From positions 124,001-188,000 of the forward strand of contig NZ_QLNP01000062.1 in NCBI RefSeq assembly GCF_003261175.1: DNA of 64,000 nt, in the 5' to 3' direction. The translations under genes were made by a program, and so were the position numbers. The DNA is from Arthrobacter globiformis (lineage in GTDB: Bacteria; Actinomycetota; Actinomycetes; Actinomycetales; Micrococcaceae). The notes under the pieces are model-generated. The model ran no database searches and had not been told where the DNA came from. It was given only the letters and a program-made list of their open reading frames with translations. Shown here piece after piece: positions 10,967 to 23,493 of the stretch. How positions within the stretch are numbered: the first letter of the stretch is position 1; each line of letters begins with the position of its first letter.

Positions 10967-11952
10967 CCCCAACCCCCAGCTCCGGCGACCCTGACCGGGA
11001 CACCCTCCGCCGCGCCTCGCTCAAGGTGGCGCTGCGCATCAGCGCCGGGGTGGCCGTGCTGGTCCTGGTCCTGATGGCCGCCGCCACCGTTTTCCTGATG
11101 AACAAGCTGGCACATCCGGTTCCGCCCGGGGCCACCGCGGGTGAGGCCTACACCTACCTGGATTCGAAGGACCTGATCGAAGGGATGATCCTCGCCGGCC
11201 TGGCAGGCATTCTGCTGGCTGGCGGGGTGGGGTGGGTCAGTGCACGCAGCGCCATCCGGCCGCTGGGAGAGGCCCTGGCCCGGCAACGCCGCTTTGTCCA
11301 GGATGCCAGTCACGAGCTCCGCACCCCCCTTGCCATTCTTGATGCCCGTATCCAGCTCGCGCAGCGCCAAGTGGACCCGGCGTCCGATCCGGCACAAGCC
11401 TTGGCCCGGATCCGCGAAGACACCGCCACTCTGACGGGAATCGTCAACGAACTTCTTCTTACCGCAACGGGGCCACTCAGGGGTGACGCGGGGCCTGTGG
11501 ACGTGGCCGGGATTGCCGGGTCCGTTACCGAGAGCCTGCAGGACCTCGCCGGCCGGCAGGGCGTCAGACTCGCCTTTTCCGATGGCGGCCCAACTCTGGT
11601 ACGCATGGACCCGGGCTCGTTGCGGCGCGCAGTGCTTGCCCTGGCGGACAATGCGCTGGCCCACACCCCAGCCGGCGGCAGCATCACCGTCGGCACCTCC
11701 ATTGAGGGTTCCCGCGTGGTGGTTTTGGTGACCGATACAGGTACCGGGATCACCGGAGTGGACCCGGAGCGGATTTTCGACCGGTTTGTCCGCGCCCCTG
11801 GACTGGATGGATCTTCCGGCAAGCGCAGCTTCGGGATTGGCTTGGCCCTGGTCCGCGATATTGCCAGCACGGCCGGCGGCACAGTGGAGGTGGTTCGCAC
11901 TGGGCCGGAGGGAACTGCCATGCGGCTTGCTCTGCCTCATGCCAGGCTCTGA
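10963..11952 (+). CDS. Sensor histidine kinase
   Basis: 329 residues. Two membrane segments (about 25-46 and 73-93) flank a short extracytoplasmic loop of about 25 residues, too small for a conventional sensor domain, so it may sense inside the membrane. The HisKA box DASHELRTPLA has its phosphorylated His at 117; N box DNALAH, G1 DTGTGI, F box FDRF and G2 GIGLAL complete the ATPase domain. There is hardly any HAMP domain. The cognate regulator is the overlapping upstream gene. Confidence 0.92.
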   Translation: MTPTPSSGDPDRDTLRRASLKVALRISAGVAVLVLVLMAAATVFLMNKLAHPVPPGATAGEAYTYLDSKDLIEGMILAGLAGILLAGGVGWVSARSAIRPLGEALARQRRFVQDASHELRTPLAILDARIQLAQRQVDPASDPAQALARIREDTATLTGIVNELLLTATGPLRGDAGPVDVAGIAGSVTESLQDLAGRQGVRLAFSDGGPTLVRMDPGSLRRAVLALADNALAHTPAGGSITVGTSIEGSRVVVLVTDTGTGITGVDPERIFDRFVRAPGLDGSSGKRSFGIGLALVRDIASTAGGTVEVVRTGPEGTAMRLALPHARL

Positions 11953-13327: not shown

Positions 13328-14329
13328 TCAGTCCTTGGTGCTGAAGGCGGCGTCGAAGCTGGTTTGGGAGGCGGGGAAGTCGAATTTTTTGAGGGCGTTG
13401 AGGGCTTCGGGGGCGCCGTGGAGGCGGTCCATGCCGGCGTCTTCCCATTCGATGCTGATGGGGCCGGTGTAGCCGATCGCGGTGAGGGCGCGGAAGGAGG
13501 ATTCCCAGGGGACGTCGCCGCGTCCTGCGGAAACGAAGTCCCAGCCGCGGCGGGGGTCGCCCCAGGGCAGGTGCGAGCCCATCACGGTGTTCCGGCCGGT
13601 GAACCGGAGCTTGGTGTCTTTGCAGTCGACGTGGTAGATCCGGTCCTTGAAGTCCCAGATGAAGGAGACGGGGTCGATGCCCTGCCACATGAAGTGGGAG
13701 GGGTCCCAGTTCAGGCCGAACGCTTCGCGGTGACCGATTGCTTCGAGGGTGCGGACGGTGGTCCAGTAGTCGTAGGCGATCTCGGAGGGGTGGACTTCGT
13801 GGGCGAAACGGACGCCGTTTTCATCGAAGACGTCCAGGATGGGGTTCCAGCGGTCGGCGAAGTCCTGGTAGCCGGCGTCGATGACCTTTTCGGGGACGGG
13901 CGGGAACATGGCGACGTACTGCCAGATGGAGGAACCGGTGAACCCGACGACGGTGTCCACGCCCAAAGCGCGGGCGAGGCGGGCGGTGTGTTTCATTTCC
14001 TCGGCGGCACGCTGCCGGACGCCTTCGGGGTCGCCGTCGCCCCAGACCTTGGACCCGACGATGGCTTCGTGGCGGAAGTCGATCGGGTCATCGCACACGG
14101 CCTGGCCCTTGAGGTGGTTGGAGATCGCCCAGACCTTGAGGTTGTACTTTTCCAGGACTGCGAGTTTGGACTCGACGTAGCCGGGTTCGTCCCAGCGCCA
14201 GGCGTCCAGGTGGTCGCCGGAGACGGCGATTTCCAGGCCGTCGTAGCCCCAGCCGGAGGCGAGCCGGGCGACTTCCTCGAAGGGCAGGTCGGCCCACTGG
14301 CCGGTGAACAGGGTGTACGGGCGGGGCAT
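13328..14329 (-). CDS. Sugar phosphate isomerase/epimerase-like TIM barrel (LgdB candidate)
   Basis: 333 residues of the AP-endonuclease-2/xylose-isomerase-like fold. Metal-site segments are visible: GYDGLEIA near the N-terminus, FAHEVHPSEIAYDYWTT with a conserved Glu and His, GLNWDPSHFMWQG with Asp and His, YHVDCKDTK, and SIEWEDAGMDR near the C-terminus. It is the last gene of the levoglucosan-type operon. In the Bacillus smithii levoglucosan pathway two proteins of this superfamily, LgdB1 and LgdB2, eliminate and then hydrate 3-keto-levoglucosan; this gene and the one at 15998 are the candidates, but which does which step cannot be read here. Confidence 0.85.
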   Translation of the reverse strand: MPRPYTLFTGQWADLPFEEVARLASGWGYDGLEIAVSGDHLDAWRWDEPGYVESKLAVLEKYNLKVWAISNHLKGQAVCDDPIDFRHEAIVGSKVWGDGDPEGVRQRAAEEMKHTARLARALGVDTVVGFTGSSIWQYVAMFPPVPEKVIDAGYQDFADRWNPILDVFDENGVRFAHEVHPSEIAYDYWTTVRTLEAIGHREAFGLNWDPSHFMWQGIDPVSFIWDFKDRIYHVDCKDTKLRFTGRNTVMGSHLPWGDPRRGWDFVSAGRGDVPWESSFRALTAIGYTGPISIEWEDAGMDRLHGAPEALNALKKFDFPASQTSFDAAFSTKD

Positions 14330-14357
14330 TTGGCGTCCTTTTGAGCGGTGTCGAAGA

Positions 14358-14681
14358 TCAGACCAGGGGTGTGCAGGGAGTTACGGAGAACGGTACGGCC
14401 AAGAGGGGCTCCACCTCCTTCACGAAGTCCTTGACGTGGGCTTCCTCGTTATGGGCTTGGAGGTCTTCCCGACTAGCCCAGCCCTCGATAAGGACGAACG
14501 TACCGGGCCTCTGATCATCGGAGAAAACGGTGTACTCGAGACATCCTGGATCTTTTCGGCTTTCCGCCTGCAGAGCACGGAGCACATCCTGAAGATCGGT
14601 TTCATGCCCCGCTTTGGCAATGAAGACCGGCATCAGCCAGACTTCGGCAGTGTCCTGTGGGGCTGGGAGGGTGTTGGGCAT
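14358..14681 (-). CDS. ABM-family small monooxygenase-like protein
   Basis: 107 residues with the dimeric alpha/beta-barrel pattern of the antibiotic-biosynthesis-monooxygenase family: MPVFIAKAGHETDLQDVLRA, DPGCLEYTVFSD, FVLIEGWASREDLQAHN and HVKDFVKEVEPLL. It lies between the dehydrogenase and the last TIM barrel of the operon, with 28 bp to the latter. Such proteins are often quinol monooxygenases or bind reactive ketones. A role in handling a 3-keto-sugar or its enol is an open possibility, not shown. Confidence 0.8.
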   Translation of the reverse strand: MPNTLPAPQDTAEVWLMPVFIAKAGHETDLQDVLRALQAESRKDPGCLEYTVFSDDQRPGTFVLIEGWASREDLQAHNEEAHVKDFVKEVEPLLAVPFSVTPCTPLV

Positions 14682-14712
14682 TTTCCGTCCTTGGATGGTT
14701 CCTGGGGGTGGG

Positions 14713-14743
14713 CGCGAGGGACGGCCCAGGGCCGTCCCTCGCG
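14713..14743 (-). terminator. Intra-operon hairpin, 15-bp arms
   Basis: CGCGAGGGACGGCCC at 14713-14727 and its exact complement at 14729-14743 flank a single base, between the dehydrogenase stop and the ABM gene. There is no T run, so it is more likely an mRNA-stabilising or attenuating stem than a full terminator. A related CGCGAGGGAC sequence recurs in the next gap, near 15975-15985. Confidence 0.6.
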
Positions 14744-14754
14744 AGTTGGTCAGA

Positions 14755-15927
14755 TCAACTGTCGATCTGCGGGACCTCGACCCAGGATTCTTTTGCAGCC
14801 GACTCGACGATGGCGTCGTCGATCAGGGCGACCTGGTAGCCGTCCGCGAAGTTGGGGCTTACGCTGCCGCCTTCTGCGATGGCTTTGAAGAAGTCATGTG
14901 CTTCGATGATCTTCGTTTCGCCGTAGCCGATGCCGAGCGCCGGAATGGGCCAAAGACCGTCTCCGTACGGGTGGGCCGGCCCGGTGTAGACCGTGCGGAA
15001 TCCGCGGCGGTCGGCCTTGTCGGAGGCGAAGGCTACCTGCAGTTCGTCGCGTCGTTCGTAGTTGAAGACGATGCTTCCCTCGGTTCCGTGGATTTCGAAG
15101 GTGATGTAGTTGTTCCTTCCATGGGCGTTGCGTGTCGCTTCGACGGATCCGACGGCCCCGTTGGCGAAGCGGATCATGGTCATGACTTCATCATCGACAT
15201 CAACCTGGCCGCGCGGGCCTTCCCCGCCCCGTACGGTGCCAAGGGCGTCCGCCCCGCCAGCCTGAAGCGGTCGTTCCGGGATCCAGGTTGACAGGACTGC
15301 ATTGACGGCGCTGAACTCGCCGACGAGGTACCTTGCCATGTCAAAGACATGCGTGGCGATGTCACCAAGGGCACCGGAACCTGCAACGGATTTCTGGAAG
15401 CGCCAGGACAGCGGGGAGTTCGGGTCGGCGCTCCAGTCCTGCAGATAGGTGCCGCGGAAGTTGAGGATCTGTCCGATTGCCCCTTCCTCGATGTATTTCT
15501 TTGCCAGCGCGACTGCGGGGGTGCGCCGGTAGTTGAAGGCCACCATGTGGACGATGTCCTTGTCTTTGACAGCGTCGTACATCGCCTTGGATTCTTCGCC
15601 GGTGCGGGCCAGTGGCTTTTCGCAGATGATGTGCTTGCCTGCTTCGGCCGCGGCGATGGCAATTTCGGCGTGGAGATGGTTGGGTGTGGCGATGTCTACG
15701 ACGTGGATGTCCGGGTCGTCAATGATGCTGCGCCAGTCAGCGGTGGAGTTCTCGAACCCGAAGCGGCGGGCCGCTTCCGCGGCGAGATCGGGGTTGGCTT
15801 CAGCGATGACTTTGCGGACCGGGAGGGCCGGTGCCGGCCAAAAGAACATGGGCATGGCGGCGTAGGCCAGGGAGTGGGCCTTGCCCATGAAGCCGCCTCC
15901 GATGAGGCCGACGTTGAGGTTTTGCAT
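14755..15927 (-). CDS. lgdA: Levoglucosan dehydrogenase-like oxidoreductase (Gfo/Idh/MocA)
   Basis: 390 residues. N-terminal Rossmann domain with GLIGGGFMGKAHS, then TPNHLHAE and CEKPLA (Lys104), and the catalytic pair Asp189 and His193 in GALGDIATHVFDMARYLVG. The length, these residue numbers and much of the sequence agree with what I remember of the structurally solved Pseudarthrobacter phenanthrenivorans levoglucosan dehydrogenase, which oxidises the C3 hydroxyl of 1,6-anhydroglucose with NAD+. It lies in an operon with a second Gfo/Idh/MocA enzyme, two isomerase-like barrels and an ABC importer. The assignment is from memory of the family, not from an alignment. Confidence 0.85.
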   Translation of the reverse strand: MQNLNVGLIGGGFMGKAHSLAYAAMPMFFWPAPALPVRKVIAEANPDLAAEAARRFGFENSTADWRSIIDDPDIHVVDIATPNHLHAEIAIAAAEAGKHIICEKPLARTGEESKAMYDAVKDKDIVHMVAFNYRRTPAVALAKKYIEEGAIGQILNFRGTYLQDWSADPNSPLSWRFQKSVAGSGALGDIATHVFDMARYLVGEFSAVNAVLSTWIPERPLQAGGADALGTVRGGEGPRGQVDVDDEVMTMIRFANGAVGSVEATRNAHGRNNYITFEIHGTEGSIVFNYERRDELQVAFASDKADRRGFRTVYTGPAHPYGDGLWPIPALGIGYGETKIIEAHDFFKAIAEGGSVSPNFADGYQVALIDDAIVESAAKESWVEVPQIDS

Positions 15928-15997
15928 GTGAATCCTGTTCCTTCCGGAAAGTTCGGGACACGCTGGCTGCGGCTGTCCCTCGCGGGTTGAAAAATAG

Positions 15998-16813
15998 TTA
16001 AAGGAGCTTTTCGAGGTATTTCTTGCTCAGTTCCGCTGCGGCTCGCGGGTCACCGTCGTAGTTGTCGAGTTCGACCATGAGCCAGCTGTCGTATCCGCTT
16101 TCGCGGATCGCGGCGATGATGTCCGGGAAGTCAAGTTCTCCCTGTCCCAGGGGCAGGAAATTGAAGGGCTCCTTCTGGAAGTCCTTGAGGTGGACGTGCT
16201 GGATCCTGTCGGGGTATTTCCGGATGACCGCGGCCGGGTCTGCGCCGCCCGCTGCAAGGTGTGCGGTGTCCGGGCAGAAGCCGATTCGGGTGAGCGGCAT
16301 GAGCCGGTCCAGCTCCTCCGGGCTCTCGACGATGGTGCTCAGGTGCGGGTGGTAGCTTGCCGACAGGCCGAAGCTTTCTGCGATGTCCGCTACGCTGTCC
16401 AGCGCCTCACCGAGGCGCTGGTAGTCCTCGTCAGTGGTTCCGGCCGCGCGCCGTGCTCCGCCACCCACGACGAGCCGTTCCGCCCCGAAGCTCGCTGCCA
16501 ATTCGGCGGCGCGGTGAATGCGGTGCATTTCGTCCGGAAGGATGTCGGCGTAGATGAAGTTTGCCCCGGTATAGACACTTGTCAGTGCGACGCCTGAACT
16601 GCTCAGGATCTCTTTGAGTTCCTCGGGCTTTTCTGCGTACTCCGCAAGGTTGCCGTCGAACATCTCAACGCCCTGATAGCCAACAGATGCGATGTCCTTG
16701 ACGGCGTCCCTCATGGAGCCGTGGGTCATGTAAAAGAGGTCCTTGACGCTCGTCACGCCTTGCGGGTGGCCAACGACGCCGCCCCAAGTGATGGAACAGT
16801 AACCAAGTTTCAT
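15998..16813 (-). CDS. Sugar phosphate isomerase/epimerase-like TIM barrel (LgdB candidate)
   Basis: 271 residues of the same AP-endonuclease-2 superfamily as 13328-14329 but only distantly alike. It begins MKLGYCSITWGG and shows GYQGVEMFDGN, GAERLVVGGGARRA, ASYHPHLSTIVESPEELDRL (His and Glu), GFCPDTAHLAAGGADP (Asp, His), IQHVHLKDF and LMVELDNYDGDP. These are the usual metal-ligand strands. Its ATG overlaps the stop of the upstream oxidoreductase by four bases (ATGA). Likely one of the two 3-keto-levoglucosan lyase/hydratase steps. Confidence 0.85.
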   Translation of the reverse strand: MKLGYCSITWGGVVGHPQGVTSVKDLFYMTHGSMRDAVKDIASVGYQGVEMFDGNLAEYAEKPEELKEILSSSGVALTSVYTGANFIYADILPDEMHRIHRAAELAASFGAERLVVGGGARRAAGTTDEDYQRLGEALDSVADIAESFGLSASYHPHLSTIVESPEELDRLMPLTRIGFCPDTAHLAAGGADPAAVIRKYPDRIQHVHLKDFQKEPFNFLPLGQGELDFPDIIAAIRESGYDSWLMVELDNYDGDPRAAAELSKKYLEKLL

Positions 16814-17964
16814 TGCTTCTGCCTTTCAACTGCGGAGGAAGACTTGAGTAGATCGAATGGGGTGTCAGTGCCGGGAACGTCCACCCAGGACTGTTGTGCG
16901 GCGGAGGTGACGACTGCATCCGTCAGGAGAGCTGCGCGCAGGCCGTCCCGGAACGTGGGCAGGCCTTCGGGTGTCTGCCCCTGAACGGCTGCGTATATGT
17001 CGGCTACGAAGGAGTTGAAGCTGTCCTGGTATCCCTGCGGATGTCCGGGTGGGAGTTTCGCGTACCGTCGGCCGCCGGGCGTGCTGAGGGTCTGCGGGCC
17101 GACGGCGATTTCGGAACTGGACGCTGTACTTCCCACGTGCAGGGTGTCCGGTCGTTCCTGGTTGAAGCTGAATGACGCTTCAGTTCCGTCGAAGGAGAAC
17201 CACAGCCGGTTTTTGCGGCCCGGGCTGACCTGGCTGACGACGAGTGAGCCCGTGGCCCCCTTGTCGGTCTCGAACAGGAGCGTGGCCCCGTCCTCGGTAG
17301 CAACGGAGGACAACTGGCCGCCAGTTTCGCGTTGGTCGTAGGCCCGGCTGGTTTTGGCCACCAGCCTCGTGATTCTGTGGCCGGTGGTGAACTCCATCAG
17401 GTCACACCAGTGCACGCCGATGTCACCGAATGCCCTGGAGGCGCCTCCGAGTTTTGAATCGACCCGCCAGTTTGTGGCTTCCGCGCCCACCAGCCAGTCC
17501 TGCAGGTAGGAGCCGTGCAGGAGCCAGAGGTGGCCGGCGTCGCCGCGCCGGATACGATCGCGGGCCTCGCGGACGGCTGGATAAAACCTGTAGACGAAGG
17601 GCACACCCGTGACGACGCCTTCCCGTTCGGCGAGGTCTGTGAGTTCCCCGGCGTCCTCAACGCTGGTGGCGAGCGGCTTCTCACAGACAACCGGTTTCCC
17701 TGCTGCGATGGCCCTGCGTGCGAGGTCGGCGTGGGTGGCGTTCGGGGTGCAGATATGGATGACATCCACATCGTCCCGTGCGATCAGCGCCTCGGCGGAT
17801 TCGGCTGCGGTATGGGCGCCGAGCGCGGCGGCTGCCGCTTCGGCGGAAGCCGGGCTGCTTCCGGCGATTGCACTGACTTCGCCGCCTGCTGCGCGAACCG
17901 CCTGGGCATGGACTGAGCCCATGAATCCTGTCCCGATGATTCCGGACCGTAGTTTGAGGGTCAC
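16810..17964 (-). CDS. Gfo/Idh/MocA oxidoreductase (LgdC candidate)
   Basis: 384 residues. Rossmann motif GIIGTGFMGSVHAQAV, CTPNATHADLA, CEKPLATSVED and GGASRAFGDIGVHWCDLMEF, in which Asp and His repeat the D-I-x-x-H pattern of LgdA. The GTG at 17964 gives a start right at the nucleotide-binding domain and leaves 5 bp after the permease stop; the open frame continues upstream only because it overlaps the permease gene. In the known four-enzyme pathway LgdC reduces 3-ketoglucose to glucose with NADH, which this second enzyme of the operon would fit. Confidence 0.85.
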   Translation of the reverse strand: MTLKLRSGIIGTGFMGSVHAQAVRAAGGEVSAIAGSSPASAEAAAAALGAHTAAESAEALIARDDVDVIHICTPNATHADLARRAIAAGKPVVCEKPLATSVEDAGELTDLAEREGVVTGVPFVYRFYPAVREARDRIRRGDAGHLWLLHGSYLQDWLVGAEATNWRVDSKLGGASRAFGDIGVHWCDLMEFTTGHRITRLVAKTSRAYDQRETGGQLSSVATEDGATLLFETDKGATGSLVVSQVSPGRKNRLWFSFDGTEASFSFNQERPDTLHVGSTASSSEIAVGPQTLSTPGGRRYAKLPPGHPQGYQDSFNSFVADIYAAVQGQTPEGLPTFRDGLRAALLTDAVVTSAAQQSWVDVPGTDTPFDLLKSSSAVERQKQ

Positions 17965-17969
17965 GCGGT

Positions 17970-18956
17970 CTACTTCTTTCGGGCCAGGGCGACGGCCAGG
18001 ATGATGATGGCGCCGCGGACGACCTGTTGCTGGCTGCTGTCCAGGCCGGCCAGAATCAGGCCGTTGTTGATCAGGCCAATCAGGAGGGCACCGAAAAGAG
18101 TGCCCATGATGGAGCCGAATCCGCCGAAGAGGCTTGTTCCGCCGAGGATGACGGCTGCGATGGCGGAGAGCTCGTCGCCCGATCCCCACTGGAACCGGCC
18201 GGATTGGAGACGTCCCGCGTACAGCATGCCAGCCACGCTTGCGACCATGCCCGAGATGAGGAGCACCTGGAACTTGATGCGCTTGGTGTTGATGCCGGTG
18301 AACTCGGCAGCGTTGCGGTTGCCGCCGGTGGCCAGTACCTGGCGGCCGAACTTGGTGCGGTTCAGCACGACGGCGCCAATGGCCACGAAGATGGCGCTCC
18401 AGATGACCAACCCGGGAACGGGGCCGAAGTCGCCGGACCCGAACAACATGTTGAATGTGTCGTTAAGGATGGGCTGCGGGGCCGAGGCGGTGATCCACTG
18501 GGCAACGCCTACAGCGATACCCAACATTCCCAGCGTCACGAGGAAGGAAGGGATGCCGAGGAGACTGACCAGTGCGCCGTTGATGGAGCCGACCACGAGT
18601 CCAACGGCAAGCCCGGCGAGGACTCCGGGGATCAGACCCCACTGCGACAAGGCCATGGCCGTGCAGACGCTGGACAGCCCGGCTACGGATCCGACGCTCA
18701 GGTCGATTTCGGCGCAGGAGATAACGTAAGTCATGCCCACCGCGATGACAGTGATAGTAGCGGTCTGCCGGAAAATGTTCAGCAGGTTTTGCGGGGACAT
18801 GAAGCCTTGGTCCCGCAGCAGGACGGCGAAGAAGAGGAAGACGACGAGGAAGCCGATGTAGATGACGTAGCGGCGCCAGTCGAGCTCTTTCAGGACCGTT
18901 CCGAAACTGCGGGGTGCCGCGGTGTCGCGGGCGGGGATGGTGTTTGCCTTGCTCAC
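17970..18956 (-). CDS. Sugar ABC transporter permease (RbsC-like)
   Basis: 328 residues, about ten hydrophobic segments. The carbohydrate-uptake-2 permease pattern is clear: VGMTYVISCAEIDLSVGSV, GLVVGSINGALVS, VLNRTKFGRQVLATGGN, EFTGINTKRIK and GTSLFGGFGSIMGTLFGALLIG. It is the only permease of the cluster, so it would form a homodimer. It lies 3 bp downstream of the ATPase gene and 5 bp before the LgdC-like gene, so all are cotranscribed. Confidence 0.92.
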   Translation of the reverse strand: MSKANTIPARDTAAPRSFGTVLKELDWRRYVIYIGFLVVFLFFAVLLRDQGFMSPQNLLNIFRQTATITVIAVGMTYVISCAEIDLSVGSVAGLSSVCTAMALSQWGLIPGVLAGLAVGLVVGSINGALVSLLGIPSFLVTLGMLGIAVGVAQWITASAPQPILNDTFNMLFGSGDFGPVPGLVIWSAIFVAIGAVVLNRTKFGRQVLATGGNRNAAEFTGINTKRIKFQVLLISGMVASVAGMLYAGRLQSGRFQWGSGDELSAIAAVILGGTSLFGGFGSIMGTLFGALLIGLINNGLILAGLDSSQQQVVRGAIIILAVALARKK

Positions 18957-18959
18957 TGT

Positions 18960-20468
18960 TCAGACTCCCTGGACTGCAAGTTGGAGATATTCCTCGTCAG
19001 CGATCTCGCTGCGGGGGATGTCACGGATGACGGAGCCGTCCTTGAGGACGAGGACGCGGTCGCTGACCGCGAGTAGTTCGGGGTATTCGGAGGAGATGAC
19101 GATGACGGCCTTGCCGGCGCTGGCGAGTTCGCGAATCATGTCCAGGATCTCGCTCTTGGTGCCGATGTCGACGCCGGCTGTGGGTTCGTCCAGGATCAAG
19201 ATGTCCGGGTCGGTGCCTAGCCACTTGGCGATCACCACCTTCTGCTGGTTTCCGCCCGAAAGCAGCCGCACCGGGCGGTTGGGGTGGGCGACCTTGACAG
19301 CGAACTTCTTGATGAGGGAGGAGGACAGATCCTTGCCCTTCATGGAATCAAGCAGTGGTCCCCGCTTAATCTGGCCAAGCAGGGGCAACAGCAGGTTGTC
19401 GCGGACAGAGTGGTCCAGGACCAGGCCTTGAGCCCGCCGGTCCTCGGGAATGAGGGCGACGCCGGCGTCAATGGCCTGCTGGGGGGAGTTCAGATTGGCT
19501 TTCTCCCCGCGGATGAGGATGTCTCCGCTGTCCCGACGGTCGATTCCGAACAGTGCCCGGGCGAGTTCGGTGCGGCCGCTGCCCATGAGACCCGCCAGGC
19601 CCAGGATCTCCCCTGGGTGGAGCGAGAAGGAGACGTCCCTTACCCGTGGCCCGGCGTTCAGCCCGCGCACCTCCAGCAGGGGCGCTCCCTCGCGGGCGAT
19701 ATGGTCCCGCTCGCGGTAGGCAAGCTGGCCCTCGATCTTCTTGCCGACAATGCCCTCCACGATCTGTTCCGGTGTCACAGCACTAAGCGGCTCGGTGAGG
19801 AGTCCGCGGCCATCCCGGAGGATCGTGATCCGGTCGGCAAGCCGGTAGACCTCATCCATGCGGTGAGAGATGTAGATGATCGAGATCCCACGCTGCTTGA
19901 GCCGGTCAATCAGTTCGAAGAGCGCTTCCGATTCGTGACGGGCAAGGCTTGCTGTGGGCTCGTCCATGATCAGCACCTGGGCGTTCTGCGAGAGCGCTTT
20001 AGCGATCTCGGTCAACTGCCAGTAGGCCGTGCCGAGCCGGGAGACCTCGGCCTGGGGGTCGACGTCCACCTCCATCTCGGCGAAGATTTCCCTGGCCCGC
20101 CGCACCGAGGCGCGGTCGTCGATCAACCCGCCCGCACCGAGCGGCTCAGCGGCAAGAAAGATGTTTTGAGCGACATTCAGGCTCGGTACGAGGCTGAATT
20201 CTTGGAAGACCATCCCGATGCCGGCAGCCTTCGCGTCCTGAATCGAGTTGATGGTCGCCGGCTTGCCGCCAATGACGATCTCGCCGGCGTCGGCCTGATA
20301 CACACCCTGCAGGATCTTCATCAGCGTGGACTTTCCTGCCCCGTTGCCTCCTGCGAGGGCGTGGACCTCGCCCTTCCGGACGTCGAAGCTGACATCCTTC
20401 AGAACTGGAACGCCGTTGAAGCCCTTGGAAATCGAGCGCATCTCGACGACATTGTCTGCGGTGTTCAT
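18960..20468 (-). CDS. Sugar ABC transporter ATP-binding protein (RbsA-like, two domains)
   Basis: 502 residues with two nucleotide-binding domains, as in RbsA/MglA. Domain 1 has Walker A GGNGAGKST, Walker B VLIMDEPTASL and the switch YISHRMDEV. Domain 2 has the usual degenerate Walker A (GLMGSGRTE), signature LSGGNQQKV and DILILDEPTAGVD. It energises import through the downstream permease. A 12-bp-arm hairpin separates it from the binding-protein gene upstream. Confidence 0.93.
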   Translation of the reverse strand: MNTADNVVEMRSISKGFNGVPVLKDVSFDVRKGEVHALAGGNGAGKSTLMKILQGVYQADAGEIVIGGKPATINSIQDAKAAGIGMVFQEFSLVPSLNVAQNIFLAAEPLGAGGLIDDRASVRRAREIFAEMEVDVDPQAEVSRLGTAYWQLTEIAKALSQNAQVLIMDEPTASLARHESEALFELIDRLKQRGISIIYISHRMDEVYRLADRITILRDGRGLLTEPLSAVTPEQIVEGIVGKKIEGQLAYRERDHIAREGAPLLEVRGLNAGPRVRDVSFSLHPGEILGLAGLMGSGRTELARALFGIDRRDSGDILIRGEKANLNSPQQAIDAGVALIPEDRRAQGLVLDHSVRDNLLLPLLGQIKRGPLLDSMKGKDLSSSLIKKFAVKVAHPNRPVRLLSGGNQQKVVIAKWLGTDPDILILDEPTAGVDIGTKSEILDMIRELASAGKAVIVISSEYPELLAVSDRVLVLKDGSVIRDIPRSEIADEEYLQLAVQGV

Positions 20469-20482
20469 TGTTGCCCTTTCGG

Positions 20483-20512
20483 GACGGTGCGGGTTTGGGT
20501 ACCCGCACCGTC
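20483..20512 (-). terminator. Hairpin between binding-protein and ATPase genes
   Basis: GACGGTGCGGGT at 20483-20494 and its exact complement at 20501-20512 enclose a 6-base loop. It lies in the 52-bp gap between the two genes and is not followed by a T run. Such stems often protect the upstream mRNA end or lower readthrough, so the binding protein is made in excess of the ATPase. Confidence 0.7.
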
Positions 20513-20520
20513 GGCTCTGG

Positions 20521-21681
20521 CTACTTCTTGTAGGACTCTTGAATGTCCTTCGGAGCGTCCTCGTGGTAGACCTGCTTCCAGGCTTCCAGGACGTTGGAGT
20601 GGTCGACTGGGACGGCGCTCAAGGCCACATAAGCCGGGGCCTTCTTGCCGATCAGTGCGCCCGCGGCCAGCCGGGCCTCCGTGACTCCCTGGTCGAAAGG
20701 AACCTGGGCGCCGAGTCCAACGACGAGCTGGTCTTTGGCCAGGGCAATGGCAACGTTCTTACCGAGGTCCTCGGTGGCGATCTTCAGGTCCTGGCGGCCT
20801 GCGGCGCGCGCTGCGGCCATGACACCTTCTGCAGGGACGTCCCACACTGCCCAGATTCCGCTGAGGTCGGCGTATTTGCTCAGCATGGCGTTGGCAGCTG
20901 CCTGGGCGTCTCCGGCGAAATCGGGGCCTGCGATGCCCTTTTCCTCCACGATCTGGACATTCGGGTAGTCCTTGGTGATCGTTTCCTTGAAGCCCTGGTA
21001 GCGCTGCTTGGTCACGAAGAAATCAGCCTGGTGGAAGACAAGGCCAATCTTGCCCTTGCCGCCGATGGCCTTGGCCATCTGGTGCGCGGCGACGACACCG
21101 TTGCCGTAGTTGTCGGCGGAAACGACGGAAACGTAGTCCTTGCCTGCAGTCAGCCCCTGAGGAATGTTGTCCATGAAGACGAGCTTCGCTCCGGCGGCAG
21201 CTGCCTTCTTGTAGGCCGAGGCCGTGGCCACGGGGTCAGTGGGGATGGAAACAATGATGTTCGGGTTCTGCGTCATCACAGTCTCGATGTCCGACACCTG
21301 CTTGTCCGGCTTAAAGTTTGCGTCCGTTGTCGCGATGACTTTGATGCCGAGCTTGTCGAATTCGCTCTTGAGGCCGTTGGTCTGCGCGGTGGCCCAGTCG
21401 TTGCCGCCGTAGTGCATCACGATTGCAGCCTTGGCATTGAGCGCCTTGATCTTCGCAACCTCTTCGGGCGTGAGATCCGCTGCCGATGCCGGTGACGGCG
21501 TCTCGCCATTGGGGCCCTTGCTCAGGACCTGTCCCTTGATCTTGTCAAGGGCCTGCTGGGCTTTCTCGGACACGCCGGTATCAGGAGCGTTGGAGCTGGC
21601 CGAGGTCGAACTGCTGCAGGAAGCGACGGAAATTGACATTGCTGCGGCCAAGGCCACAAGGGGAAGCCTGCGGATCATCAT
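20521..21681 (-). CDS. Sugar-binding lipoprotein of ribose-type ABC importer
   Basis: 386 residues. A signal peptide with lipobox SVASC is followed by a Ser-rich linker and a periplasmic-binding-protein domain of the RbsB/XylF kind (AAIVMHYGGNDWATAQTNGLK, LGIKVIATTDANFKPDKQ, NIIVSIPTDPVAT, VFMDNIPQGL, DNYGNGVVAAHQMAKAI). A TGGAG site precedes the ATG pair. It is the receptor of the importer encoded downstream, and by context would bind levoglucosan or a similar anhydro- or glycosyl sugar. Confidence 0.9.
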   Translation of the reverse strand: MMIRRLPLVALAAAMSISVASCSSSTSASSNAPDTGVSEKAQQALDKIKGQVLSKGPNGETPSPASAADLTPEEVAKIKALNAKAAIVMHYGGNDWATAQTNGLKSEFDKLGIKVIATTDANFKPDKQVSDIETVMTQNPNIIVSIPTDPVATASAYKKAAAAGAKLVFMDNIPQGLTAGKDYVSVVSADNYGNGVVAAHQMAKAIGGKGKIGLVFHQADFFVTKQRYQGFKETITKDYPNVQIVEEKGIAGPDFAGDAQAAANAMLSKYADLSGIWAVWDVPAEGVMAAARAAGRQDLKIATEDLGKNVAIALAKDQLVVGLGAQVPFDQGVTEARLAAGALIGKKAPAYVALSAVPVDHSNVLEAWKQVYHEDAPKDIQESYKK

Positions 21682-21733
21682 TGTTCTCCAGTGCTTGTGA
21701 GAGGGATAGGTGGGTCGATGGATGGGGGGGTGG

Positions 21734-22216
21734 TCAGGCCAGGGCTATGGCGAGTGCAGGAGGTACCGGCGACAGGACGAGTCCACCGGCGGCGGAGGCG
21801 GTACGGACAGCAGCAGCCTTGTCTGAAGCCCTTAAAAGGGCCTCCGCATGTTTTTTGTCGACGAAGAGTCCAAGAGAGCACGGTCCGTGATGGGCCTGGA
21901 CCCACCTCACCGCCTCCCCTGCCGCCTTTGCCATTTCACCGGCCGCCGCAGCGGCAGGGCCGTCAATGGTCGACAGCGACTCGGGTGCGCCCGATTGGTC
22001 GACCGAGACGATCAGGCTCGCCCACAGGAGGTTGTCATCGAAGACGCCGACGACACCCGAGGAGCCGGCGGAAAGGAAGGTGCGGACAGCGACTGCGAGA
22101 TCATCACGTGCTACGTCCGCCAGGAGCAGTTCCAGATTTGCCCACTGGGCCTGGTCGATGTTCCGATGCCCAACGCTCGGATCACGTAAAAGTGCGTTGG
22201 CGTTGGTGTCGCTCAT
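21734..22216 (-). CDS. Unknown protein, first gene of the levoglucosan-type operon
   Basis: 160 residues, no signal peptide or clear membrane segment, Ala-rich. It runs HRNIDQAQWANLELLLADVA, then VAVRTFLSAGSSGVVGVFDDNLLWASLIVSVD, then EAVRWVQAHHGPCSLGLFVDKKHAEALL and a hydrophobic end. I recognise no family. A GGAGAGG ribosome site precedes the ATG. It is the gene nearest the two LacI operators and 52 bp ahead of the binding-protein gene, so it should be made whenever the importer is. The segment GPCSLGLFVDKKHAEALL resembles a small-molecule or regulatory domain, but no role is assigned. Confidence 0.7.
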   Translation of the reverse strand: MSDTNANALLRDPSVGHRNIDQAQWANLELLLADVARDDLAVAVRTFLSAGSSGVVGVFDDNLLWASLIVSVDQSGAPESLSTIDGPAAAAAGEMAKAAGEAVRWVQAHHGPCSLGLFVDKKHAEALLRASDKAAAVRTASAAGGLVLSPVPPALAIALA

Positions 22217-22253
22217 CCGCGCTGCCTCTCCATTGAAGTGCCATCTCCGTGAT

Positions 22254-22303
22254 CGTTTACGAAGCTCCGTAAACGTTTACGCTAGCGATCGTAAACGTTT
22301 ACG
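22254..22303. promoter_or_regulatory. Two perfect LacI operators plus a half-site
   Basis: CGTAAACGTTTACG occurs at 22268-22281 and again at 22290-22303, 22 bp apart (two helical turns, so same face). A third half, CGTTTACG at 22254-22261, forms a further inverted pair with 22268-22275. They sit between the 160-residue gene and the LacI gene. Binding by that regulator would control both directions. Confidence 0.85.
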
Positions 22304-22431
22304 GATTTGGGTGTCAAGCGTCACACGGAGTATCGCCCTGGATCCGGGGACAGCGCGGCGACGTAAGATGGTGGACGTACAGCACCGCCGTCGGCTCGGA
22401 CCGCAGAACGCAAGACAGGAGCATGACAGGC

Positions 22432-23493
22432 ATGGCCATCCCCCGCGACGCGAACGACCGGGTTGCGGACGCTCCTTTGCGCCGGAAGCCGACCATCAAC
22501 GATGTTGCTCAAATTGCCGGCGTCTCGTTCGGGACGGTCTCGAGGGTCCTCAACAACGCACCGGACGTCAGTCCGGCGACCCGCGAACGAGTACTCCAGA
22601 TCATCAAGGACATCGGCTACCGCCGCAACCGGGCAGCCACAGCACTGGTCACCAGCCGGTCGACTTCCATAGGCATACTGTCCGACGGCTCCCCGCGGTT
22701 CGGCCCGGTAGGGACACTCATGGCACTGGAGAATGTTGCGCGGAAGAAGGGCTACGCCACAACCGTCATCAGTGTCGACAAACCCTACGAAGATTCCGTG
22801 CAGGCCGCCCTCGACAGCCTCGACGACACCGGGGTTGGGGGGATCATCGTCATCGCTCCCCTCGTCGACATGGCGGCTGCGGTCTGGAACGCCACATGCC
22901 GTGTGCCACTGGAGATGATCGCAGCCGGAGCATCATCGACGCCAAATGTCTTCACGTACTCAGAAAATCAGGAGCTCGGAGCGAGGCTCGCAACCCAACA
23001 CCTCATAGAGCTGGGCCACACCGACATCGCCCACTTCGCCGGCTCAATGGACTGGTTCGATGGGCGGGTGCGAAAACGCGGCTGGGAGGCCGCCCTCCGC
23101 GAGGCTGGCCTCGAACCAGGCCTGTGCATCGAAGGGGACTGGAGCCCGCGATGGGCCTACGAAGCCGGGCTCCAACTCGTCCGCGATGGGAGGATTCCCC
23201 AAGCGGTCTTCGCAGCCAGTGACCACACCGCCCTTGGGCTAATCCGCGCCTTCGCCGAGAACGGCGTCCGCGTTCCCGATGATGTGAGCGTCGTTGGATT
23301 CGACGACATTGAAGGGTCAGACTTTTTCCTGCCTCCGCTAACCACGGTTCGCCAGGACTTCACCGCACTGGCACTCATGAGCACCGAAGTGCTTATCGGT
23401 GCCATGGAGGGGCGCGAAGTGGACCGCACGCCGATAGCGCCGAGCCTCATTGTGCGCAACAGTGCCGCACGCACCACTTCCCGCAGCAATTGA
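22432..23493 (+). CDS. LacI-family regulator of the levoglucosan-type operon
   Basis: About 353 residues. HTH KPTINDVAQIAGVSFGTVSRVLN followed by the hinge RVLQIIKDIGYRRNRAATALV, then a sugar-binding core with DHTALGLIRAFAENGVRVPDDVSVVGFDDIEGS, the classical LacI dimer-domain sequence. I prefer the ATG at 22432, which is 11 bases after AGGAG; the ATG at 22423 is too close to it. It is divergent from the operon at 13328-22216 and separated from it by the two operators. The inducer is likely the imported sugar or its first oxidation product. Confidence 0.88.
   Translation: MAIPRDANDRVADAPLRRKPTINDVAQIAGVSFGTVSRVLNNAPDVSPATRERVLQIIKDIGYRRNRAATALVTSRSTSIGILSDGSPRFGPVGTLMALENVARKKGYATTVISVDKPYEDSVQAALDSLDDTGVGGIIVIAPLVDMAAAVWNATCRVPLEMIAAGASSTPNVFTYSENQELGARLATQHLIELGHTDIAHFAGSMDWFDGRVRKRGWEAALREAGLEPGLCIEGDWSPRWAYEAGLQLVRDGRIPQAVFAASDHTALGLIRAFAENGVRVPDDVSVVGFDDIEGSDFFLPPLTTVRQDFTALALMSTEVLIGAMEGREVDRTPIAPSLIVRNSAARTTSRSN

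Follow-up and report, generated by a model that had tools for sequence, protein, structure and literature searches.

Here we analyse a window of 64,000 nucleotides from the soil actinobacterium Arthrobacter globiformis (positions 124001–188000 of one contig, in a genome of 4.88 Mb and 88 contigs) and describe a series of minus-strand genes that very probably forms a LacI-regulated operon for the use of levoglucosan (1,6-anhydroglucose), a sugar formed when plant matter burns, with a gene for every step. From the promoter to its end, the operon encodes a protein of 160 amino acids (aa), the sugar-binding protein, ATPase and permease of an ABC importer, the predicted enzymes LgdC, LgdB1 and LgdA, a small protein with an ABM domain and a barrel protein of 333 aa. 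By their coordinates, adjacent genes either overlap by 4 bases or have spacers of 3–73 bases between them. In the list below, percentages are protein identities to Paenarthrobacter nitroguajacolicus LG01, which was isolated for its ability to grow on levoglucosan (PMC10066097); the 80 loci are the best 80 of 203 relatives found by scanning contigs with a nine-sequence alignment of LgdA.

22423–23493, plus strand: divergent LacI-family regulator (LacI and Peripla_BP_3; 85.3%)
22288–22317, minus strand: sigma-70-like promoter (TTGACA-18-TACGAT), overlapped by the operator-like site at 22290
22248–22303, no strand assigned: three LacI-type operator-like sites, at 22248 (2 mismatches), 22268 and 22290 (both perfect; CGTAAACGTTTACG)
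21734–22216, minus strand: conserved protein of 160 aa, first gene of the operon (tblastn matches in 32 of the 80 loci)
20521–21681, minus strand: sugar-binding protein of the importer (Peripla_BP_4; 89.6%)
18960–20468, minus strand: ATPase of the ABC importer, with two ABC stretches (ABC_tran twice; 88.2%)
17970–18956, minus strand: permease of the ABC importer (BPD_transp_2; 92.4%)
16810–17964, minus strand: LgdC, predicted 3-keto-glucose reductase/glucose 3-dehydrogenase, 384 aa (Gfo/Idh/MocA; 81.3% to LgdC)
15998–16813, minus strand: LgdB1, predicted 3-keto-levoglucosan beta-eliminase, 271 aa (AP_endonuc_2; 90.0% to the protein in the same place)
14755–15927, minus strand: LgdA, levoglucosan 3-dehydrogenase by sequence, 390 aa (Gfo/Idh/MocA; 6a3f; NF052479; 96.7%)
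14358–14681, minus strand: ABM-domain protein, 107 aa (PF03992, 60.6 bits; 65.1%)
13328–14329, minus strand: 333-aa barrel, candidate 2-hydroxy-3-keto-glucal hydratase of the LgdB3 type (AP_endonuc_2; 2zds, 8ro4)

An earlier note on this DNA had named seven of the genes, and all seven are open frames running in one direction (minus) with small gaps or overlaps. The families it assigned were recovered as well: AP_endonuc_2 for 13328 and 15998, Gfo/Idh/MocA for 14755 and 16810, and BPD_transp_2, ABC_tran and Peripla_BP_4 for the importer genes at 17970, 18960 and 20521. It did not name the ABM gene, the divergent LacI gene with its three operator-like sites, or the first gene of the operon, which lies inside the range that it covered. 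The product of this first gene has no Pfam or NCBIfam match, and a fold search with its structure model returned weak, sterol-carrier-like matches (best E 5.2e-3; TM-score to the query at most 0.42). The lgdC frame is open up to 18189; a start near 17964 agrees with the LG01 relative.

Levoglucosan dehydrogenase and the proposed pathway

The product of the gene at 14755 matched the solved structure 6a3f with an E value of 7.6e-258 and 858 bits, and 374 of 389 aligned residues are identical (~96%, counted from the alignment). It also passed the NCBIfam equivalog for levoglucosan dehydrogenase, NF052479, with 747.2 bits against a cut-off of 650. The catalytic residues E103, K104, D189 and H193 are all present, including the Asp189/His193 pair pointed out in the earlier note; we take K104 and D189 to be catalytic residues of its family. 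Identity is far above the limit of ~40% below which the earlier note would have doubted the assignment. The sequence of 6a3f is the same as that of 6a3i, the levoglucosan dehydrogenase of Pseudarthrobacter phenanthrenivorans, and E103 and H193 of LgdA are named as catalytic (PMC10066097). These results support the identification of the gene product as levoglucosan 3-dehydrogenase, with a predicted NAD-dependent oxidation at C3. Across the bacterial family, lgdA is patchily distributed, because the NF052479 cut-off was passed in 19 of 245 genomes drawn from it. Many genomes of the family encode LgdA-like enzymes that score ~340–380 bits, far under the same cut-off.

Growing on levoglucosan, LG01 raised the levels of 19 proteins encoded in two regions and expressed LgdA, LgdB1, LgdC and an ABC cassette, as seen by proteomics (PMC10066097). 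Judged by sequence, the window genes are a near-copy of this published operon, and the original reading of the locus as a levoglucosan operon is supported by the LgdA equivalog and by the occurrence of the same operon in a strain that grows on the sugar. The window LgdC carries E95, K96, D181 and H185; in LG01 LgdC, E95 and H185 are the putative catalytic residues (PMC10066097). LgdB1 is 51.9% and 52.8% identical to its counterparts in the Bacillaceae loci L096 and L098, and its solved relatives are remote only.

We propose the LgdA, LgdB1 and LgdC steps because these proteins are close homologues of published ones. The ABC importer would take levoglucosan into the cell, where LgdA would oxidize it at C3 with NAD and LgdB1 would form 2-hydroxy-3-keto-glucal by eliminating the C1–O6 bridge; hydration of this intermediate by the 333-aa barrel may then yield 3-keto-glucose, which LgdC would reduce to glucose with NADH, leaving ordinary metabolism to phosphorylate the glucose. 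Use of the sugar without an ATP-dependent kinase had been suggested before, and that part holds in so far as no gene of the AnmK family, which we take to be that of levoglucosan kinase, exceeded the cut-off in the genome (one partial match, 23.1 bits against 24). The route is nevertheless not ATP-free, because ABC import and the later phosphorylation of glucose both use ATP. As NADH from LgdA can be reused by LgdC, it can be redox-neutral (PMC7676230).

Gfo/Idh/MocA enzymes are broad, and the operon might instead degrade another sugar or glycoside that can be oxidized at C3 (scyllo-inositol, L-glucose or another anhydrosugar), with levoglucosan as an incidental substrate. The inositol and L-glucose dehydrogenases 5ya8 and 6ktj do occur among the further matches of LgdA, and the importer ATPase and permease fell under every sugar-specific NCBIfam cut-off among the matches listed. 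We nonetheless regard another substrate as very improbable, given that among the matches of LgdA 6a3f, at 858 bits, is far ahead of the next-best structure (313 bits) and of 5ya8 (241 bits), that LgdA passed the levoglucosan equivalog cut-off, and that the counterpart operon in LG01 is the published levoglucosan locus (PMC10066097). The same difference between 858 and 241 bits led us to reject an inositol or L-glucose dehydrogenase as the product of 14755, whose best matches, a concern of the earlier note, are not inositol enzymes. What counts against the levoglucosan assignment is that only homology gives LgdB1 and LgdC their names, and that growth of this strain on levoglucosan is a prediction from its genes.

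The hydration step and the 333-aa barrel

In Bacillus smithii, the LgdB1 product 2-hydroxy-3-keto-glucal is hydrated by LgdB2, a step enhanced by Mn2+ (PMC7676230). For LG01, no LgdB2 was found and an LgdB3 of unproven function was proposed (PMC10066097). We infer that the 333-aa barrel most likely supplies this hydration, the step for which LG01 was reported to be without LgdB2, and that LG01's LgdB3 may be either this barrel or its 68% paralogue in LG01. Under E 0.001, the 333-aa barrel has just two solved relatives: 2zds, with an E value of 4.4e-167, and 8ro4, which is named '2-hydroxy-3-keto-glucal hydratase' (5.1e-37, 131 bits, residues 17–326). These are likewise the two best matches of the LgdB2-type barrel of L096, over its second half. 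The structure 8ro4 reportedly comes from Kastner et al. 2024 and is presumably that of an enzyme of a non-hydrolytic glucoside pathway, acting on O-glucosides rather than levoglucosan. E178, D209/H212 and E294 are common to the 333-aa barrel, 8ro4 and other barrel types; together with a strand-7 histidine, we take them to be the metal-ligand positions of this fold. Our literature searches found nothing joining '3-keto-glucoside' with hydratase and lyase, and the main text of PMC10066097 contains 0 uses of 'hydratase' (counted at word start, with figures and supplements outside the count).

The product of 13328 is ruled out as a Bacillus-type LgdB2, being 29.1–29.8% identical over 238–251 columns to the barrels of L096 and L098. 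The 'same enzyme mix' as in Bacillus, as it had been described, therefore holds only by inferred function. LgdB1 and LgdC are 90.0% and 81.3% identical to the LG01 proteins, and the LgdB2-type comparison gave ~29–30%.

Within the fetched stretch around lgdA, 22 of the 80 loci have barrels of the type found in the window (B333-type) and 13 have LgdB2-type or third-type barrels; no locus has both and 45 have neither. Of these 45, three are contigs ending inside a B333-type gene (L032, L036 and L050), while L025 retains a remnant and L044 a truncated copy. The third type, present in 11 loci (L060, L062, L064, L065, L070, L073, L074, L076, L079, L083 and L089), is 67–95% identical to that of L060 and ~25–29% identical to both other types, and never accompanies the 333-aa type in those loci. 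We also surveyed 60 distinct genomes with lgdA, hand-chosen in sets of 22, 20 and 21. A full-length or near-full-length B333 relative (orthologue or close paralogue) was present at ≥68% identity in 41 genomes and at 50% in one; a further 13 genomes encode a barrel of the LgdB2 or third type and lack a close B333. As a side observation, L076 belongs to a metagenome-assembled genome labelled Bifidobacterium breve, yet its lgd layout is that of L074 (Actinomycetia bacterium LanE43) and its identities to the window are nearly the same; the genome has probably been mislabelled.

A second copy of the barrel gene lies on another contig of the same genome (L143, 8388–9386, on contig C6), 98% identical in protein and 96.0% in DNA over 13328–14353, and adjoins Gfo/Idh/MocA genes and a 251-aa barrel. 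A 68% paralogue (L144, 9278–10228) also stands beside Gfo/Idh/MocA-like genes. The LG01 genome likewise holds two B333-type matches (97% and 68%), so its LgdB3 may be one of them. Besides the 333-aa barrel, the operon of the 97% copy encodes a binding protein, two permeases, two Gfo/Idh/MocA-like proteins (84% and 85% identical to their L143 counterparts) and a protein of 253 aa whose beginning resembles that of the 251-aa L143 barrel. We propose a hydratase role because of the remote homology to 8ro4, the exclusivity with LgdB2-type barrels and the near-identical copy in a second dehydrogenase/barrel cluster, which would share the same intermediate.

The 333-aa barrel may instead belong to that other dehydrogenase/barrel pathway, with hydration of the glucal occurring spontaneously or through LgdB1 or the ABM protein. 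Several findings favour such a bystander role or weigh against the hydratase assignment. A full-length B333-type barrel is missing from the fetched stretch in 58 of the 80 loci; in L025 (Arthrobacter silvisoli), the barrel gene after ABM is reduced to a 129-bp remnant (11590–11724), and in L044 (Arthrobacter sp. EPSL27) it is broken off (11653–11931), with only fragments in the genome. Five of the 60 genomes fit poorly: G303 has no match, G263 a weak partial one, G271 and G302 only full-length matches of 32–33%, and G280 fragments only. The similarity to 8ro4 is distant (131 bits), and the strand-7 histidine is unaligned, the window having HVDCKD and 8ro4 a histidine two residues later. LgdB2 and LgdB3 have moreover been suggested to overlap in function, with neither essential for levoglucosan metabolism (PMC10066097). 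Against a bystander, no locus combines B333 with a barrel of the LgdB2 or third type near lgdA, no close B333 is present in the 13 genomes with those barrels, and in Sinomonas the barrel holds its place after ABM while its sequence has been homogenized with that of a second copy. On balance we consider a bystander role unlikely, and retain the 333-aa barrel as the candidate hydratase.

A tree of 51 hand-picked barrel copies (partial ones and some near-duplicates were left out) informs how the lgd-adjacent gene arose. The 'next to lgd' label, carried by 14 rows, needs 14 changes on this tree, at least 11 of them forced by well-supported branches; in this labelling, L151 and L170 are called second-operon type without neighbour evidence, and L099 is called lgd although it has no ABM gene. 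A single origin of the lgd-adjacent barrel followed by plain descent is ruled out (14 lgd rows as one clade, approximately unbiased test, p-AU 2.8e-11). The tree includes both copies of eight genomes. In six of them (that of the window, ISL-85, CC185 and Sinomonas DS1018, DS1015 and ASV486), the lgd copy groups with the other copy of its own genome; in AL07, the two form a three-row group with the lgd copy of another strain, and in C9C5 they are unpaired.

This pairing within genomes could reflect many independent insertions rather than gene conversion, a view that fits the forced changes on the tree and the differing spacers and downstream flanks of the Arthrobacter-group lgd copies. The three Sinomonas strains, a subset picked after the tree was seen, speak against it. 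The flanks of their lgd copies are alike on both sides (DS1018 and DS1015: 84% upstream, and 82% and 94% in two downstream stretches; ASV486, less alike: 74–86% upstream and 69–71% downstream), yet each gene body pairs with the other copy of its own genome and one lgd clade is rejected (p-AU 4e-81). Because flanks are alike between strains and gene bodies pair within genomes, the two barrel positions in Sinomonas evolve in concert, the mark of gene conversion. Repeated insertion, still plausible for the Arthrobacter group because its flanks differ, is a real contender, with somewhat less than an even chance in our estimation. Whether by conversion or by repeated insertion, it seems that one and the same enzyme is required in both operons.

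The ABM-domain gene and the control region

The ABM gene is one of 7 PF03992 genes in the genome. Counting iterated profile matches with E values of 1e-4 or better over at least half of the profile, we found an ABM gene directly 3' of lgdA in 43 of the 80 loci (34 of 38 Micrococcaceae, 7 of 17 Microbacteriaceae, one Micropruina and one Kineococcus), elsewhere in the fetched stretch in 13 and nowhere in it in 24, four of which are short contigs of <9 kb. Because the loci are related, the 43 placements are not independent events. Eight of the 13 genes placed elsewhere come right after a 333-aa or third-type barrel; the matches in this group are weaker (68–98 bits), and those in L083 and L095, which lie on the other strand, may be unrelated. 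Among 14 genomes without ABM in the lgd locus, seven have 31–37% matches elsewhere only and seven have none at E 1e-5, which makes a strict requirement for ABM less likely. The match in Paenarthrobacter histidinolovorans (L030) contains one internal stop. Another cluster of the window's genome, on contig C46 (L147, 6149–12450), also combines Gfo/Idh/MocA genes, an AP_endonuc_2 barrel, ABM and LacI.

Y50, E66 and H77 are invariant in an alignment of 33 ABM sequences. The structure model (mean pLDDT 92.8) gave Foldseek matches to ABM-type proteins, LsrG (3qmq, 2gff) among them, with a TM-score of 0.84 to 3qmq_A; unlike the predicted fold, the sequence is distant, at 18–23% identity to LsrG and ABM-type structures. 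PRK10486, which we take to be the LsrG model and which is named pentane-2,3-dione isomerase, matched weakly (29.9 bits, far under its cut-off of 135). One speculative reading, which we regard as rather unlikely, is that ABM acts as a fifth, so far unrecognized enzyme of the actinobacterial pathway. As an isomerase, tautomerase or mutarotase similar to LsrG and working without a cofactor, it would convert the reactive 2-hydroxy-3-keto-glucal, its 2,3-dione tautomer or 3-keto-glucose and so keep flux going between LgdB1, the hydratase and LgdC. The isomerase reading is motivated, not shown, by the dione isomerase activity in the name of the LsrG model and by the glucal being, as we reason, the enol of a 2,3-dione. 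In our literature searches, no paper linked levoglucosan to an 'antibiotic biosynthesis monooxygenase'. The word 'monooxygenase' does not occur in the main text of PMC10066097; figures and supplements are outside this count, so the gene may be drawn there.

Upstream of the operon, 3 operator-like sites were found against 0.05 expected by chance. Beyond the two perfect ones the genome contains no exact copy, and two further sites outside this region have 1 mismatch. Of 28 loci that have a divergent LacI match, 25 carry similar palindromes in the same intergenic region; in L029, L036 and L046, our filter detected none. The region scanned contains a sole promoter-like match, which is not significant on its own (1 found, 1.2 expected there by chance) and whose −10 box is overlapped by one of the sites. 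Terminator-like sites are no more frequent than chance (7 found, 7.9 expected). The simplest reading is that the operon is under a dedicated local LacI repressor, as predicted from these sites.

Comparison with known levoglucosan loci

As an instance of a published pathway, the operon is good but unremarkable; it adds a better-argued hydratase and one unexplained partner, ABM. Two points become testable: whether the LgdB3-type barrel is a hydratase shared with a second dehydrogenase/barrel pathway, and what ABM does.

The candidate hydratase keeps E178, D209/H212 and E294 in common with 8ro4, from which it differs by the two-residue shift of the strand-7 histidine. The lgdA-lgdB1-lgdB2-lgdC genes of B. 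smithii (PMC7676230) carry out the same four reactions that we would expect in the window. Compared with Bacillus sp. REN16 and Peribacillus saganii, standing in for B. smithii, the window proteins are ~71% (LgdA), 52–53% (LgdB1) and only 37–38% (LgdC) identical, and the Bacillaceae LgdB2-type barrel matches the 333-aa barrel at ~29–30% over part of the chain. The LG01 locus (L021) is far closer: it shares the order from the binding protein through ATPase, permease, LgdC, LgdB1 and LgdA to ABM, at 65–97% protein identity, and has similar operators upstream of the operon. It differs in having no clear homologue of the 160-aa gene and in the position of its 97% identical 333-aa barrel, which sits in another operon of the same contig, and not, as in the window, after ABM.

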